Source: Gemmatimonadaceae bacterium (lineage in GTDB: Bacteria; Gemmatimonadota; Gemmatimonadetes; Gemmatimonadales; Gemmatimonadaceae). Taken from it: a stretch of 52,153 bases of DNA. A program made the translations under genes and the position numbers. The stretch's first letter is position 1, and every line of letters begins with the position of its first letter. The stretch covers positions 1-52,153 of the forward strand of contig JACVCD010000026.1 of assembly GCA_016742275.1 (NCBI GenBank), read 5' to 3'. Below the pieces are notes generated by a model. The model saw only the letters and a list, made by a program, of their open reading frames with translations. It had not been told where the DNA came from and ran no database searches. Below are positions 44,402 through 50,474 of this stretch, piece by piece.

Positions 44402-46123
44402 ATGCTTCGTGCCCCTTCGCTCCGGCGACCCGCGCTTTCGCTACTGCTGCGGTCGCTGACTTTTTCATGGCTCGTTGTTGCAGGGCTTTCTGCCTGTGGT
44501 GGCGGAAGCTCTGACGGAACGACGGAGCCTCCACCGCCTCCACCTCCTCCGCCACCACCGGCGGCTGTTGCCCGCGTCACGCTGGCCGCAGTGCCTGAGC
44601 GCATGACATTGGGTGCGCGCATCACGCTTCAGGCCACCGCTACAGATGCGTCCGGCAATGTGCTCACAGGGCGCGCCACCAGTTGGCGGAGCAGCAATAG
44701 TGAAGTCGCCAGTGTCTCGTCCACCGGTGATGTCACGGCCTTCGCTCTCGGCGCGGCCACAATCACCGTAACCGTGGAGAGCGCGAGTGCGAGCGCCACT
44801 ATTACGGTAGCTCCGCTGCCTGTGGCACGGGTGCGTATCACTGCGCCCACACTCTCGGTGAATGAAGGGCGCACGGTTTCCCTGTCGGCCGCAACATTGG
44901 ATAGTGCTGGCCGTACTCTGACGGATCGCAGTGTTGCATGGGCCAGTCGCAACACGGCCGTGGCTACCGTCAGCAGCGCGGGCGTGGTGACGGGTGTGTC
45001 ACAAGGAGCGGTCGTCATTGCCGCGACGAGTGAAGGTATACGCGACTCGGTCACCATCACGGTTGCCGCGCCACTGCCACCGTCACTGGCGTTCGACACC
45101 GCGCCACCCGCCGGTGTGTTGCCAGGGCGTGCGTTCCGTGCGCGTGTGCGCACTGTCGATGGGCGCACCGGTGCGCCAGTGCTCTACACCGGGCCAGTGG
45201 TTGCCACACTGGTACAGAGCTCGACGGGCAATCTGGTGGGTACCACCACCGTACAGGCGCAGAATGGAGTGGCAATCTTCGACAATTTGGCGCTCATGCA
45301 AAACGGCTCCTGGCAACTGCGATTTGCGGCGACCGGATACGAACCACTGGTGTCGGGTAACATCACGGTCGGCGCAAACGGGAATGGTACGATCACAATC
45401 AGTACGCCCACCGTTGCCCGTCCGGTACTCGGAACTACGACTACCGCGACCTACAGCTTCACGGCAACGGTGCGCGATCTCAATGGTGTTGCCGTGGCCG
45501 CTCCCACGATGGTGAATGCGGAAGTGGTGCGCGGCAACGCGGTGATCGTGTCCGGAGGATCGATGACTACGGGCAGTGGTGGTACAGCCACCATGCAGAT
45601 CTCCGTGCGGGGCAGCGGTACGTTCGATCTGTTGCTCAGCACACCTGATCAGCAAACCGGAACGCATGCCATGGCCACGCTTTCGTCAACGGCGGCGTTT
45701 GGTGGTGCGCAACGCTTTGCCCCGGATTCGGTGGTCGCTGTCGGCGCAACGTTCCAGATCAATTTTGGCGTGCAGGTCAACGCGCAATCACCACTGGCAG
45801 TGCACAGCGTGGTGATGGAGATGAATTGGAGTCCTGATGCGTTCGAGCTGGTGAGTGACAGTACGGTACTCACCAATGCGTCGGTGACACTCAATCGCAG
45901 CGGCGTGGCTGAGGGTGTACTGCGGGCAACGGTTGCAGGTACGGACGCTATCGCCACCATCGGACGATTCACGTCGATGATTGCCTTGAGGTTCCGTGTG
46001 AAGGACGGTGATGGGATACGCGGTGTCCAGCGCATTCAGGTGCACACCATTGAAGCGCGTGGGCCGCTCGGCGAACTCTTTCAGGAACGGGTGACGTCGG
46101 AAACGACGCTTCGGGTGCCATGA
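44402..46123 (+). CDS. Lipoprotein with Big_2 Ig domains and a C-terminal cohesin-like domain
   Basis: 573 aa. Lipoprotein signal ending VVAGLSAC, then GGGSSDGTTE and eleven prolines as a wall/membrane spacer. Two Big_2 domains (about 55-140 and 140-225) and two further beta domains (about 228-330 and 330-435) follow. Residues 437-573 look like a cohesin: VGATFQINFGVQVN, VVMEMNWSPDAFELVS, a GVAEGVLRATVAG strand pair and SMIALRFRVKDGDG, the usual order of the type I cohesin fold. Cohesins bind dockerins, and the third gene of this operon ends in a dockerin. The cohesin call is by pattern only. The stop overlaps the next start (ATGA). Confidence 0.82.
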   Translation: MLRAPSLRRPALSLLLRSLTFSWLVVAGLSACGGGSSDGTTEPPPPPPPPPPPAAVARVTLAAVPERMTLGARITLQATATDASGNVLTGRATSWRSSNSEVASVSSTGDVTAFALGAATITVTVESASASATITVAPLPVARVRITAPTLSVNEGRTVSLSAATLDSAGRTLTDRSVAWASRNTAVATVSSAGVVTGVSQGAVVIAATSEGIRDSVTITVAAPLPPSLAFDTAPPAGVLPGRAFRARVRTVDGRTGAPVLYTGPVVATLVQSSTGNLVGTTTVQAQNGVAIFDNLALMQNGSWQLRFAATGYEPLVSGNITVGANGNGTITISTPTVARPVLGTTTTATYSFTATVRDLNGVAVAAPTMVNAEVVRGNAVIVSGGSMTTGSGGTATMQISVRGSGTFDLLLSTPDQQTGTHAMATLSSTAAFGGAQRFAPDSVVAVGATFQINFGVQVNAQSPLAVHSVVMEMNWSPDAFELVSDSTVLTNASVTLNRSGVAEGVLRATVAGTDAIATIGRFTSMIALRFRVKDGDGIRGVQRIQVHTIEARGPLGELFQERVTSETTLRVP

Positions 46124-46647
46124 CCATGTCGCATCACAATCCTCCATCCAATCGAGTTTCGTGGGCATGTCTGGCCACGCTACTCTCCGTTCTTGCGGGT
46201 GCATGCATAGATACGGCGCGCCCAGGCCCAAGCCCCGCGGTAGTTCCCGGGAGTGAGTATTACACAGCAAGTCTCACCGGTGCGATTGGTCTCGATGGTA
46301 CGACCGTGCTGTCCATGCGCTTGCTCGCTGGCGTGTCGGCACAGCCTATTGGCGGATACCGAGTGAGTTTCACACTCCCTGTGGGACTGGATACGGTGCC
46401 GGGGGGAACCAGTCAGGCAGGTGCTTCGGGCAATGTCCAGCGCGTTGTTTCAATACAGGGACGTACGGTGCATGTCGCTGGAATAGCTTCGAGCGGTTTT
46501 ACCGATAGTGAGTTGTTCGTGCTCGGTGTTCGCGGGAAAGACGCCAACGGAGTCGCGCAGAGTCTTACGGTTCATGAACTCGTGGACGTGAAGGGTGGTG
46601 ATCAGTTGTCGCGTCTTCGTCCTCATGATTTTGCGAGGCCCAAGTGA
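46120..46647 (+). CDS. Small lipoprotein with a possible second cohesin-like domain
   Basis: 175 aa (ATG 46120 overlaps the previous stop; ATG 46126 is an alternative). Lipoprotein signal ending LLSVLAGAC. The mature ~145 residues are one beta domain: TTVLSMRLLAGVSAQPIGGY, RVSFTLPVGLDTVPGG, GRTVHVAGIASSGF and SELFVLGVRGKDANG. This strand order (a framework strand pair, a 'P-x-G-L' turn where cohesins have 'YDPxxL', then a 'LF-x-L-x-x-(R/K)' strand) is cohesin-like but weaker than in the upstream protein. The stop overlaps the GTG start of the next gene. Confidence 0.72.
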   Translation: MTMSHHNPPSNRVSWACLATLLSVLAGACIDTARPGPSPAVVPGSEYYTASLTGAIGLDGTTVLSMRLLAGVSAQPIGGYRVSFTLPVGLDTVPGGTSQAGASGNVQRVVSIQGRTVHVAGIASSGFTDSELFVLGVRGKDANGVAQSLTVHELVDVKGGDQLSRLRPHDFARPK

Positions 46648-49529
46648 GCCACGCGCGTGCAATGCTGAGACGATTGCTGTTCGGCGCGTTGCTCCTCGGA
46701 AGCACTGCGGTGTCGATGGCTGCGCAACCAGTCCCGGTTCAAGCCACCGGGACGCTGCACATGGTCTGGGGCGATCCCATGGATGATCGTATCCCGCGCT
46801 ATCAGGCGTTGATCGACGAAGGCAATGGACGCATCACACGCTATGCCATCGATCATCTCGATCTCGGATTCGTAGCTCGCCTGCAGCAGCTCGACCGGCA
46901 ACGAGTCGTGGTCACGACGGAAATCCCGCGTGCCGGACTGCTGGCAGAAGGCAGTACGGGTTCGCTGCCGCGCTTGAGAGAAGTGTCACCTGTCGCGGCA
47001 GCATCATCCGCTGCCCGTCTTATGGCGCCGGCCGCGTGGGTCATTCAGCGCCGCCCATATGCGGTGGTGCTTTGCAAGTTCAACGACATTCCAACGGAGC
47101 CACTGCCGCCAGCGGCGTATGAACGCATGTATGGACGTGGCAGTGGCGGTGCCGATGCGTACTACCGGGAAGTGTCGCGTGAACGACTCAATCTCGAAGG
47201 CACGACGATCGTCGGATGGGTGACATTGCCGCGTCCTCGCAGTGGCTACACCCTCTCTGATGGGGAAGCCAATCTCGGACTGATGAGCAACGACTGTCTC
47301 GCGGCGGCTGACTCGCAGCTGGACTACAGCCAGTTCGGTGGTGTGGGCATGCACTTCAACAGCGCCATCGGGTGCTGTTCATGGGGAGGCAGCACTGCCG
47401 TCTTGCTCGATGGACCGGCGCGGGTAATGCCGGCCATGTGGAACATGGATTGGGCGCGCTCTGGTACGGTCTGGCATGAACTCGGCCACTCTTTCGGTCT
47501 GCCGCACAGCGCTGGCCCCTACGGCGCGGTATACGACTCGCGTTGGGATGTCATGAGTTCGTCGAGTACGGGCAGTTTTCTCAATGCCGACTTTGGTCGC
47601 GCCGGCGCGCATTTCCTGGGCTATCACAAGGACCGGCTGGGATTGATCCCGGATTCATCGAAAGTCGAAGTGATGAGTGGGACCTGGCATGGGTTGCTCG
47701 AATCGCACAGCGTTGCCGCGACGACCGCCGGCAGCAAACAGTTGATTGTGGTACCGCTCACGCACTATCGCGCGGGTGCACATCTCATGATCGAAGCGCG
47801 TACACGCGCTGGACTTGATCGCAGCGTGCCGGGAGAAGGCGTTCTGATTACCACCGTCGATATCTCGCGCGGTGAACCAGCGCAGGTCGTGGACGTGGAT
47901 GGCAACGGCGATGTGAACGATGCCGGTGCGGTGTTCACGGTTGGCGAGACGTATGACCACCCGGGTGCGGCAGTGCGGGTACGCGTGGATTCCACGCATG
48001 AGAAGGGATGGTGGGTGACGGTCACTCGCAATGCGGGCACTGGTGTGGCCACGTTTGCGAAGCCGGGTGCCACGCTTGAAGTGCCAGCGGGTGTCACCGG
48101 CTGGATCCGGGATTCGGCTGCCGTGACAGCTCAGGATACGTGGTTCGCCTACCCACTGACGTTGCCCCAGTGGCTTCGTTTGGAACGTTCGTCAGGTACC
48201 CGCAACGGATGGTTGGTCTACACCGTTAATCCTTCCCTGCTGTCGGCTGATCGCAGTGTGTTCACGTTGCAACTGTGGGCTCCGGTCGGGCAGACACGTT
48301 CGGCCTTCCGATTGGAAATCGGACGCGTGGCCGACGGAAGACCACAGCCGCTTGCGCAGTTGTCGCGTGTTTCCCGCTCTATCGTGGCAAGTCGTGGTGA
48401 ACCGTTTGTTGGCTTCGATACGGTGCGGCTCAACCTGAGCGGCGCGCTTGCCAGTGTCGTTTGGAGCGCGCGTCCATCGCCGCGCATGTATCTCTACAAC
48501 GAGCCGCGTACTGCGCGCGATACGCTGTCCTTCCGCACCGGCAGCAACACACTGGCCTATTGGTTCGTAACTGCCGGGTTGAACGACGGGACCTACATCG
48601 ATACGCTGCGCATCGATATCCCGGGCCATACACCACGTGAGCTGTTGGTCATCGATACGGTGACCCTGAACAGCAACGAAGGGCCCGCGATACAGTTCAG
48701 CCCACGCCGTCCTTCGCTCACCATGCCGGTCGGTGCACTGCCGCAAACGGACAGTGTGCAGGTCGTGCTCAGCGGCACGAATGCGGAATGGAGTGTGTTC
48801 AACCGTCGCAGCGATTCCCGTCTGGTACGCACGAATGGTGCAAGCGGAGAATGGATCGTATGGCAACGCTCACCCCTCGCGGTGGGACGCACCATCGACA
48901 CCATCTTCGTGAATGTGCCGGGAATCTCCCAGCAGCGCATCGTCGATACACTCACCGGTGTCAATCAGCCTCTCACACTCACCGCATCGCGTCGTGGCAT
49001 GCGTGGTGTCGCGATGCTAGGCAGTATGCCGCGTATCGACAGCGTGCAGGTGGCTGTGCTCAGCACGGTCGGTGTGAACACCAACTGGACGGCGAGCGCA
49101 CCCGCCAGTGTGCGACTGCATCAGCGTGATGCGTTCACCACTGTTGCCACAGGACGCACGGGAGACTTCGTGCGATGGTCGCGCAATCTCCGATTGCTCG
49201 ATCCGGGCCGATACATCGACACCATCAGCATCGTTGTACCGGGCGCGATTGGTTCGCCGTTCTTCGTGGTCGATACCACCGACGTGCAGGCGCCGCTGCC
49301 GGTGATGGGCGACGCGGATGGCGATGGCAGCATCACCGCCGCCGATGCGAGCACCATTCTCCGATGGCTGGTGCAGATGCCCGTGAGCCCACGAGCCAAT
49401 GTGCGAGTACTCGGCGACGCCAACTGTGATGGGCAAATCACCATCGCGGATGCGCTGATCATTCTGCAGCACGATGCGGGGCAACGCGTTCAGACGTCGT
49501 GTATCGGGCGTCCGGTTTCTCAGCCCTGA
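46644..49529 (+). CDS. Secreted zinc metalloprotease with BACON-like repeats and C-terminal dockerin
   Basis: 961 aa from GTG 46644, GAGG five bases upstream; the start overlaps the previous stop (GTGA). Signal peptide to about residue 27 (SMAAQ). The zincin site HELGHSFGLPH is at 278-288 and a Met-turn-like WDVMSSS near 306, with GYHKDRLGLI after it as in M6-like/metzincin proteases. From about 590 to 870 three repeats with 'G.YIDTI.(V/I).(V/I)PG' ends resemble BACON or Ig domains. Residues 885-961 are a dockerin with two complete calcium loops, DADGDGSITAAD and DANCDGQITIAD, each followed by a helix. Dockerins anchor enzymes to cohesins; the two upstream genes supply candidates. Peptidase substrate unknown. 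Confidence 0.9.
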   Translation: MSHARAMLRRLLFGALLLGSTAVSMAAQPVPVQATGTLHMVWGDPMDDRIPRYQALIDEGNGRITRYAIDHLDLGFVARLQQLDRQRVVVTTEIPRAGLLAEGSTGSLPRLREVSPVAAASSAARLMAPAAWVIQRRPYAVVLCKFNDIPTEPLPPAAYERMYGRGSGGADAYYREVSRERLNLEGTTIVGWVTLPRPRSGYTLSDGEANLGLMSNDCLAAADSQLDYSQFGGVGMHFNSAIGCCSWGGSTAVLLDGPARVMPAMWNMDWARSGTVWHELGHSFGLPHSAGPYGAVYDSRWDVMSSSSTGSFLNADFGRAGAHFLGYHKDRLGLIPDSSKVEVMSGTWHGLLESHSVAATTAGSKQLIVVPLTHYRAGAHLMIEARTRAGLDRSVPGEGVLITTVDISRGEPAQVVDVDGNGDVNDAGAVFTVGETYDHPGAAVRVRVDSTHEKGWWVTVTRNAGTGVATFAKPGATLEVPAGVTGWIRDSAAVTAQDTWFAYPLTLPQWLRLERSSGTRNGWLVYTVNPSLLSADRSVFTLQLWAPVGQTRSAFRLEIGRVADGRPQPLAQLSRVSRSIVASRGEPFVGFDTVRLNLSGALASVVWSARPSPRMYLYNEPRTARDTLSFRTGSNTLAYWFVTAGLNDGTYIDTLRIDIPGHTPRELLVIDTVTLNSNEGPAIQFSPRRPSLTMPVGALPQTDSVQVVLSGTNAEWSVFNRRSDSRLVRTNGASGEWIVWQRSPLAVGRTIDTIFVNVPGISQQRIVDTLTGVNQPLTLTASRRGMRGVAMLGSMPRIDSVQVAVLSTVGVNTNWTASAPASVRLHQRDAFTTVATGRTGDFVRWSRNLRLLDPGRYIDTISIVVPGAIGSPFFVVDTTDVQAPLPVMGDADGDGSITAADASTILRWLVQMPVSPRANVRVLGDANCDGQITIADALIILQHDAGQRVQTSCIGRPVSQP

Positions 49530-49787: not shown

Positions 49788-50474
49788 TCAGCCGCGCGTC
49801 TTCCGCTTCCGCGCTACTCCCGCCAGTCCGAGTACTCCCACGCTAAGCAGGGCCAGCGAGGCCGGCTCGGGCACCGTGGTGTAGTTGCCGGCAATGTCAT
49901 CGATCTCGAAGGCCCGTCCATCCGACGTCACACGCAGCGACGTGAAGCCCGATGTCTGCGAGAGATCGAAGAACACGCGGCGGTTCATGCTCGGGATGGT
50001 CTGATCGCCATTGGCGCCAGCGATGATGTCGGTGCCTGTCAGGAACGTGCCGTTGCTCGCGCCGGTGATGGCCATGGCATTGCCGTTGGCATCGAGGAAC
50101 TCGAGCTTGTTGTACGTGTCGATCGAGCCCCAGTAGAAGCTGAGCGCGGTGAGCGAGCGCGTGGCCAGGAAGCCCGAGAAGTTGATCACGGCCGTACCGC
50201 TGCTGTGGCTATTCACATCAGGAACCGCGAAGAATCCGCTGGACACGCCAGCCGGCGCAGCAGCGCCCGAGACCGACCCGGCGAGGATCGAGTAGCTGCC
50301 GCTAAAAGTGATGCCCGAATAGCTCGCGGGATTCAGATTGTTGAAGTTGACGATCAGCTGCTGGGACCCATATCCAGGATCGGGCGCTCCGGTGACCGAA
50401 GAAAAGCTGACCTGGGCATCGGCCTGGGTGGCCGTGGCGGCAAGTAGCAGGGCACCAGCAAGGACTGAACGCAT
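49788..50474 (-). CDS. PEP-CTERM sorting-signal surface protein
   Basis: 228 aa. Signal peptide about 1-20 (GALLLAATATQADAQ). The mature region is a beta-rich domain (FNNLNPASYSGITFSGSYSI; LTALSFYWGSIDTYNKLEFL; GRAFEIDDIAGNY). It ends with VPEPASLALLSVGVLGLAG and ARKRKTRG, the PEP motif, membrane helix and basic tail of exosortase substrates. An exosortase/EpsH system must lie elsewhere; none is in this window. Function probably linked to surface or exopolysaccharide; ligand unknown. Confidence 0.92.
   Translation of the reverse strand: MRSVLAGALLLAATATQADAQVSFSSVTGAPDPGYGSQQLIVNFNNLNPASYSGITFSGSYSILAGSVSGAAAPAGVSSGFFAVPDVNSHSSGTAVINFSGFLATRSLTALSFYWGSIDTYNKLEFLDANGNAMAITGASNGTFLTGTDIIAGANGDQTIPSMNRRVFFDLSQTSGFTSLRVTSDGRAFEIDDIAGNYTTVPEPASLALLSVGVLGLAGVARKRKTRG

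Follow-up and report, generated by a model that had tools for sequence, protein, structure and literature searches.

A three-gene operon of a Gemmatimonadaceae bacterium that probably docks a secreted M6-like protease onto divergent cohesin lipoproteins

The docking of dockerins onto cohesins is familiar chiefly from cellulosomes, whose many enzymes it holds together. Three overlapping genes of a Gemmatimonadaceae bacterium raise the question of whether such docking could serve a single secreted enzyme and, if so, which domains would receive it. The earlier note on this DNA read the genes as encoding two lipoproteins with cohesin-like domains and a metalloprotease with a C-terminal dockerin, and proposed a minimal one-enzyme system at the cell surface. 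The window, i.e. the whole stretch of 52,153 nucleotides analysed here, is contig 8 of a host genome of 4.57 Mb that is 99.6% complete.

Gene layout and protein products

The coordinates and lengths of the three open reading frames, together with their ATGA and GTGA overlaps, were confirmed in the window sequence. The operon and its domains lie as follows.

44402..46123, + strand: gene 1, predicted lipoprotein of 573 amino acids carrying two Big_2 repeats and, at the C-terminus, a cohesin-type domain (ATG start)
44567..45064, + strand: two Big_2 (bacterial Ig-like) repeats, about residues 56-221 of protein 1, a candidate stalk (Pfam E 6.3e-19; first boundary approximate)
45701..46105, + strand: cohesin domain 1, residues 434-568 of protein 1 (family cohesin profile, AF2, Foldseek and VIA-align)
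46120..46123, + strand: stop/start overlap ATGA of genes 1 and 2
46120..46647, + strand: gene 2, predicted small lipoprotein of 175 amino acids (ATG start)
46267..46623, + strand: probable cohesin domain 2, residues 50-168 of protein 2 (family profile, hhalign and a weak AF2 model)
46644..46647, + strand: stop/start overlap GTGA of genes 2 and 3
46644..49529, + strand: gene 3, predicted secreted M6-like metalloprotease of 961 amino acids with a C-terminal dockerin (GTG start)
47460..47852, + strand: core of the M6-type protease domain, residues 273-403 of protein 3 (TIGR03296 E 2e-19, under the curated cut-off)
47475..47507, + strand: zinc-binding motif HELGHSFGLPH, of the form HExxHxxGxxH, residues 278-288
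49287..49502, + strand: dockerin domain, residues 882-953 (PF00404 over its cut-off; family profile E 2.9e-28)
49311..49346, + strand: dockerin calcium loop 1, DADGDGSITAAD, residues 890-901
49416..49451, + strand: dockerin calcium loop 2, DANCDGQITIAD, residues 925-936

A search for promoter- or terminator-like signals found none above chance. Full orthologues of all three genes are present in the genomes G048, G050 and G052, and a Gemmatimonadaceae metagenome-assembled genome encodes a near-full-length relative of protein 3 with 72% identity. Just downstream of the operon, on the - strand (49788-50474), lies a gene for a PEP-CTERM-type protein ending in VPEPASLALLSVGVLGLAGVARKRKTRG; similar PEP-CTERM-type neighbours also adjoin the orthologous loci L029 and L030.

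Protein 1 carries a lipobox, LSAC, at Cys32 after a signal peptide, as well as a Pro-rich linker and the two Big_2 repeats, in agreement with its earlier description as a Big_2 lipoprotein. In protein 2, Cys29 follows the signal peptide within an imperfect lipobox (LAGAC); the lipoboxes of its orthologues (L029, L030, L031) read VSAC, LVAC and MAGC, and these canonical forms support its prediction as a small lipoprotein. Both proteins would be acylated at these cysteines. Neither lipoprotein was matched by any NCBIfam model, and protein 2 had no match in Pfam either; in protein 1, Pfam left some 140 residues at the C-terminus unassigned.

Protein 3 combines the motif HELGHSFGLPH with a following Met-turn, WDVMS, features by which this protein and its relatives are predicted to be metzincin-type zinc proteases; the earlier note had called protein 3 a metalloprotease. 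HExxHxxGxxH is present in ten of the 12 M6-type proteins compared, that of the window included. The NCBIfam M6 domain model TIGR03296 matched with an E-value of 2e-19 and 70.5 bits, and since this does not reach the cut-off of the model (110.8), we refer to the protein as M6-like rather than M6. A PDB sequence search with the protease returned only weak matches to dockerin and to calmodulin EF-hands. The dockerin claimed for its C-terminus was recovered by Dockerin_1 (PF00404) at residues 889-940, with 23.7 and 26.7 bits in two scans against a cut-off of 22.9. It is type I-like, and both calcium loops, starting at residues 890 and 925, are intact in their 12-residue D-x-N/D-x-D-G pattern. Cys928, at position 4 of the second loop, and the C-terminal Cys953 recur in most dockerins of the group (DANCDG...C), where they may form a disulfide clasp.

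A divergent cohesin domain in protein 1 and a probable one in protein 2

Whether the lipoprotein domains are cohesins was addressed with profiles and with structural models. The starting cohesin profile consisted of 27 cohesins of relatives that PF00963 had found, in genomes where it recognises cohesins adjoining dockerin genes, and was then extended iteratively over gene neighbourhoods; since the family profiles were trained on relatives and grown in this way, their E-values are optimistic. The hhalign queries were alignments of only the four orthologues of each domain, and the AF2 models of both domains were built from two-row alignments, which left out the relatives found by genome search.

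For domain 1 the several approaches converge. The family cohesin profile matched residues 443-539 of protein 1 with an E-value of 1.7e-9 after one round of extension, when the window still lay outside the training set, and with 3.5e-15 in a later round. Alignment of the domain 1 orthologues with Pfam-defined cohesins by hhalign gave a P-value of 6.8e-8 and a probability of 95%. The AF2 model, derived from its two-row alignment, has nine strands, a pLDDT of 82 and a pTM of 0.78. In Foldseek, the PDB matches to this model are led by the Clostridium perfringens cohesin 2vo8 (E 9.1e-8), and nearly all of the best 30 are cohesins, with pilin domains lower down the list; VIA-align superposed the model on 2vo8 with a Z-score of 16.2 and an rmsd of 2.1 over 132 residues. 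The model thus supports a cohesin fold for domain 1.

Domain 2 is more distant. The family cohesin profile matched protein 2 with an E-value of 1e-9, only late and with the filters off (--max); the orthologue of protein 2 at L031 scored 8.4e-10 before its inclusion. With hhalign, the domain 2 orthologues matched Pfam-defined cohesins at a P-value of 4.7e-5 and a probability of 68%. The AF2 model is of low confidence (pLDDT 63.5); its best PDB match is the Archaeoglobus fulgidus cohesin 2xdh (E 5.1e-5), and VIA-align with this same low-confidence model gave a Z-score of 10.4 for 2xdh, cohesins occupying rows 1-23. A direct hhalign comparison of domains 1 and 2 gave no link, the two being too divergent. 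On sequence grounds, homology of domain 2 to cohesins is supported, and the domain is probably itself a cohesin.

Reversed-sequence control proteins gave zero matches in every profile iteration, and because this control remained without any match, the cohesin homology lies far beyond chance. Control hhalign comparisons of cohesins with the Big_2 repeats of protein 1 and with the two domains in its middle gave P-values of 0.016 to 0.13. PDB sequence searches with either lipoprotein domain returned nothing relevant. Neither domain of the window matched the Pfam cohesin model PF00963, whose cut-off is a detection threshold and not a biological feature; both are divergent cohesin homologues and not PF00963 matches. 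The cohesin-like domains suspected earlier are backed by fold and profile, more weakly for domain 2 with its low-confidence model.

Occurrence and exchangeable cargo in the Gemmatimonadota

When the whole genome was searched with the family-built profiles, exactly one dockerin and two cohesins were found, all of them inside the operon, so that the term 'minimal one-enzyme' proved literally true for this 99.6%-complete genome. Most genomes of the genus likewise contain one dockerin and two cohesins, while five of 30 have neither family. In four genus genomes (G046, G068, G070 and G069) a cohesin or a dockerin appeared alone; the mismatch is only apparent, contig ends having cut the loci. Within the genus, the Pfam model detects cohesins in 3 genomes as compared with 24/30 for the family-built profile.

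The association extends to the family. Among 178 genomes, 48 contain both domains and 118 neither, while four have a dockerin only and eight a cohesin only (Fisher 4e-30, a value that treats related genomes as independent). All 115 cohesins located on a dockerin-bearing contig lie at most 4.5 kb from a dockerin, and for 63 of the 75 dockerins a cohesin is no more than 5 kb away. Of the 41 dockerin genes uncut by a contig end, 39 are accompanied on the same strand by a cohesin gene at a distance of at most 1.5 kb, and 28 by at least two such genes. The gene order of large cohesin lipoprotein, small cohesin lipoprotein and dockerin protein recurs across the phylum; the homologous operons of relatives thus keep the dockerin, as the earlier note would have them do.

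The cargo varies from locus to locus around retained cohesin genes. Sortilin-Vps10/BNR propellers are the commonest type among the cargo proteins scanned, and others include RCC1, S8 subtilase, beta-helix and DUF285 proteins. The operon of the window encodes a protease as its predicted cargo, but the kit is not protease-specific, its usual cargo being a Vps10/BNR propeller. It may be, and here our confidence is evenly divided, that the Gemmatimonadota possess a general docking kit, in which paired cohesin lipoproteins, mostly invisible to Pfam, and a single dockerin cargo in each operon, exchangeable among protease, Vps10/BNR propeller, RCC1 and beta-helix, replace the multi-enzyme scaffold, the window representing the protease form.

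Several loci depart from this layout. In family f6, a small cohesin lipoprotein adjoins a large protein whose dockerin is N-terminal, and no stalked cohesin lipoprotein was detected at these loci. In G055 and G062, which belong to the same genus as the window's genome, a lipoprotein that exceeds Pfam's cohesin cut-off is encoded directly 3' of the M6-dockerin gene. Some cargo proteins have a cohesin of their own ahead of the dockerin, among them the M6 proteins of these two genomes (L035 4991-8323; L036 5976-9488), where one chain has the cohesin immediately ahead of the dockerin and at least two genes for cohesin lipoproteins lie downstream; chains of this type could link units or polymerise. 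In some propeller-cargo operons an extra gene separates the gene of the small cohesin lipoprotein from that of the cargo (L040 4049-4696, L041 10014-10589, L126 8740-9345); by eye its product resembles an IPT/TIG-type lipoprotein, and the window operon is without it. In three M6 relatives that lack a full dockerin, the chain ends with one EF-hand-like motif, LDLQGNRNGRxDxGDxRAW, and each of their genes overlaps the start of a gene for a lipoprotein of about 134 amino acids with a short beta-rich domain (L032 6197-9598 and 9595 onwards; L033 7437-10154 and 10151-10552; L034 6986-9874 and 9871 onwards). Each such pair may be a reduced docking pair; alignment to cohesin and dockerin by hhalign gave probabilities of 10% and 7.5%, which are no more than suggestive. 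At the other extreme, genomes of family f11 of the same phylum (G179, G181, G182, G184, G186, G187) have dockerins numbering 13 to 16 or more and as many as 11 cohesins, including multi-cohesin frames in contig G186:C135, with four or more, and G179:C180, with a frame of 3111 amino acids, that are scaffoldin-like and possibly cellulosome-like. Finally, in a cluster of G063 (L163 3617-11463) that includes lipoproteins and a TonB-receptor-like protein, there are cohesin-like ends and a split dockerin-like stretch.

Docking mechanism, alternatives and known parallels

We consider it quite probable that the three genes form a self-contained docking operon, in which the dockerin of the protease docks in a calcium-dependent manner onto one or both lipoprotein cohesins and is thereby held at the envelope. 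Gene 3 would supply the secreted M6-like zinc protease with its C-terminal type I-like dockerin, and genes 1 and 2 two lipoproteins with one divergent cohesin each, that of gene 1 on an Ig-like stalk and that of gene 2 on a short protein. Docking would keep an otherwise soluble protease at the cell envelope, most likely at the outer face of the outer membrane; no path by which the protease might cross the outer membrane was identified. Of the two cohesins, the small one is more likely to be the primary partner, since the f6 loci keep it and the stalked one went undetected there. The presence of two cohesins for one dockerin might reflect alternate anchors at different heights, or an escort and an anchor.

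One alternative concerns the position of the complex. If the lipoproteins were attached to the inner membrane, or to the outer membrane at its inner leaflet, docking would be real but periplasmic, with a protease working inside the envelope in quality control or processing. Lipoprotein signals alone give no sidedness, the +2 residues (Gly, Ile) do not decide location, and a surface-export system was identified for none of the three proteins. A Pro-rich linker and an Ig-like stalk such as those of gene 1 are, however, of a kind usual in exposed proteins, and the very large dockerin cargo of relatives, 1400-2300 amino acids long, has RCC1, beta-helix or cadherin-like repeats such as extracellular proteins typically contain. 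A periplasmic site appears rather unlikely.

A second alternative concerns the division of labour between the lipoproteins: the small one could act as chaperone or escort, capping the dockerin while it is exported and then passing the protease to the stalked anchor. Such roles would be in keeping with the retention of both cohesins in most intact operons (at least two at 28 of the 41 uncut dockerin genes, and mostly 2:1 in the genus) and with a divergence between domains 1 and 2 too great for a direct hhalign link. In family f6, however, the dockerin protein has only the small lipoprotein beside it, which would have to be the anchor there, so that we regard an escort role as doubtful.

It is also conceivable that the domains have the cohesin fold without binding this dockerin, acting as adhesins or glycan-binding domains while the dockerin finds its partner elsewhere. 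A shared fold does not prove function, and the Pfam cohesin model misses both domains; yet the near-perfect genomic linkage of the two families and their co-absence, the exchange of cargo around the cohesins and the dockerin, and the finding of no other dockerin or cohesin in the genome make this improbable. That the domains are ordinary bacterial Ig-like sandwiches with a superficial likeness to cohesins deserves almost no credence: the beta sandwich is common to cohesins and Ig-like domains, and pilin domains do appear lower in a structural list, but cohesins top both lists, and Big_2 and the other domains of protein 1 have no profile match to cohesins.

The preferred reading, docking of the protease onto lipid-anchored cohesins, can be set against known systems. 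As in the clostridial cellulosome, an enzyme with a dockerin tail would sit on cohesins, and the dockerin is type I-like with two calcium loops. Unlike the clostridial system, the operon has no multi-cohesin scaffoldin, each cohesin being on its own protein, a single dockerin protein that is a protease instead of a glycoside hydrolase, and predicted lipid anchors in a diderm. A cellulosome was thus rejected as an explanation: two cohesins lie on two proteins, and the genome has one dockerin. The S8 protease of C. thermocellum, which has a double dockerin, prefers the cell-bound scaffoldin ScaD (PMC12484212). There too the proposal is that a dockerin keeps a protease at the cell surface, outside the main enzyme scaffold; it is, however, an S8 enzyme and a cellulosome part in a monoderm, whereas the operon described here is free-standing and has three genes.

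Non-cellulosomal cohesins and dockerins occur in the three domains of life, according to Peer et al. 2009 as cited in PMC9012536. Among solved structures, those closest to both domains, A. fulgidus 2xdh and C. perfringens 2vo8, 2jh2 and 2w1n, are single cohesins outside cellulosomes; those cohesins belong to glycoside hydrolases or archaeal proteins, and not to paired lipoproteins adjoining one cargo gene. Cohesin and dockerin proteins are found in ANME archaea and Seep-SRB as well (PMC9012536, PMC10553843), likewise for extracellular docking unrelated to cellulose degradation, but some of theirs are scaffoldin-like, with as many as five cohesins, and the cargo is different. For Ca. Stygibacter (Cloacimonadota), a cellulosome-like complex with dockerin-bearing peptidases has been proposed (PMC8542988). 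It resembles the present case in placing dockerins on secreted peptidases of a diderm, and differs in that one scaffoldin of 3,755 amino acids with tandem cohesins gathers several enzymes, whereas here there is no scaffoldin. In the open-access literature, to which the search was confined (subscription papers lay outside its scope), no paper on Gemmatimonadota, cohesin and dockerin was found.

The operon would thus represent nearly the smallest form of cohesin-dockerin docking, one plug and two lipid-anchored sockets, stable and widespread in a diderm phylum that has received little attention in this regard. The kit is concealed by standard annotation, as the 3 against 24 of 30 genomes of the genus illustrate. 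It offers a simple test case for why two different cohesins are needed by one dockerin, and could be a source of small orthogonal cohesin-dockerin pairs for surface display.
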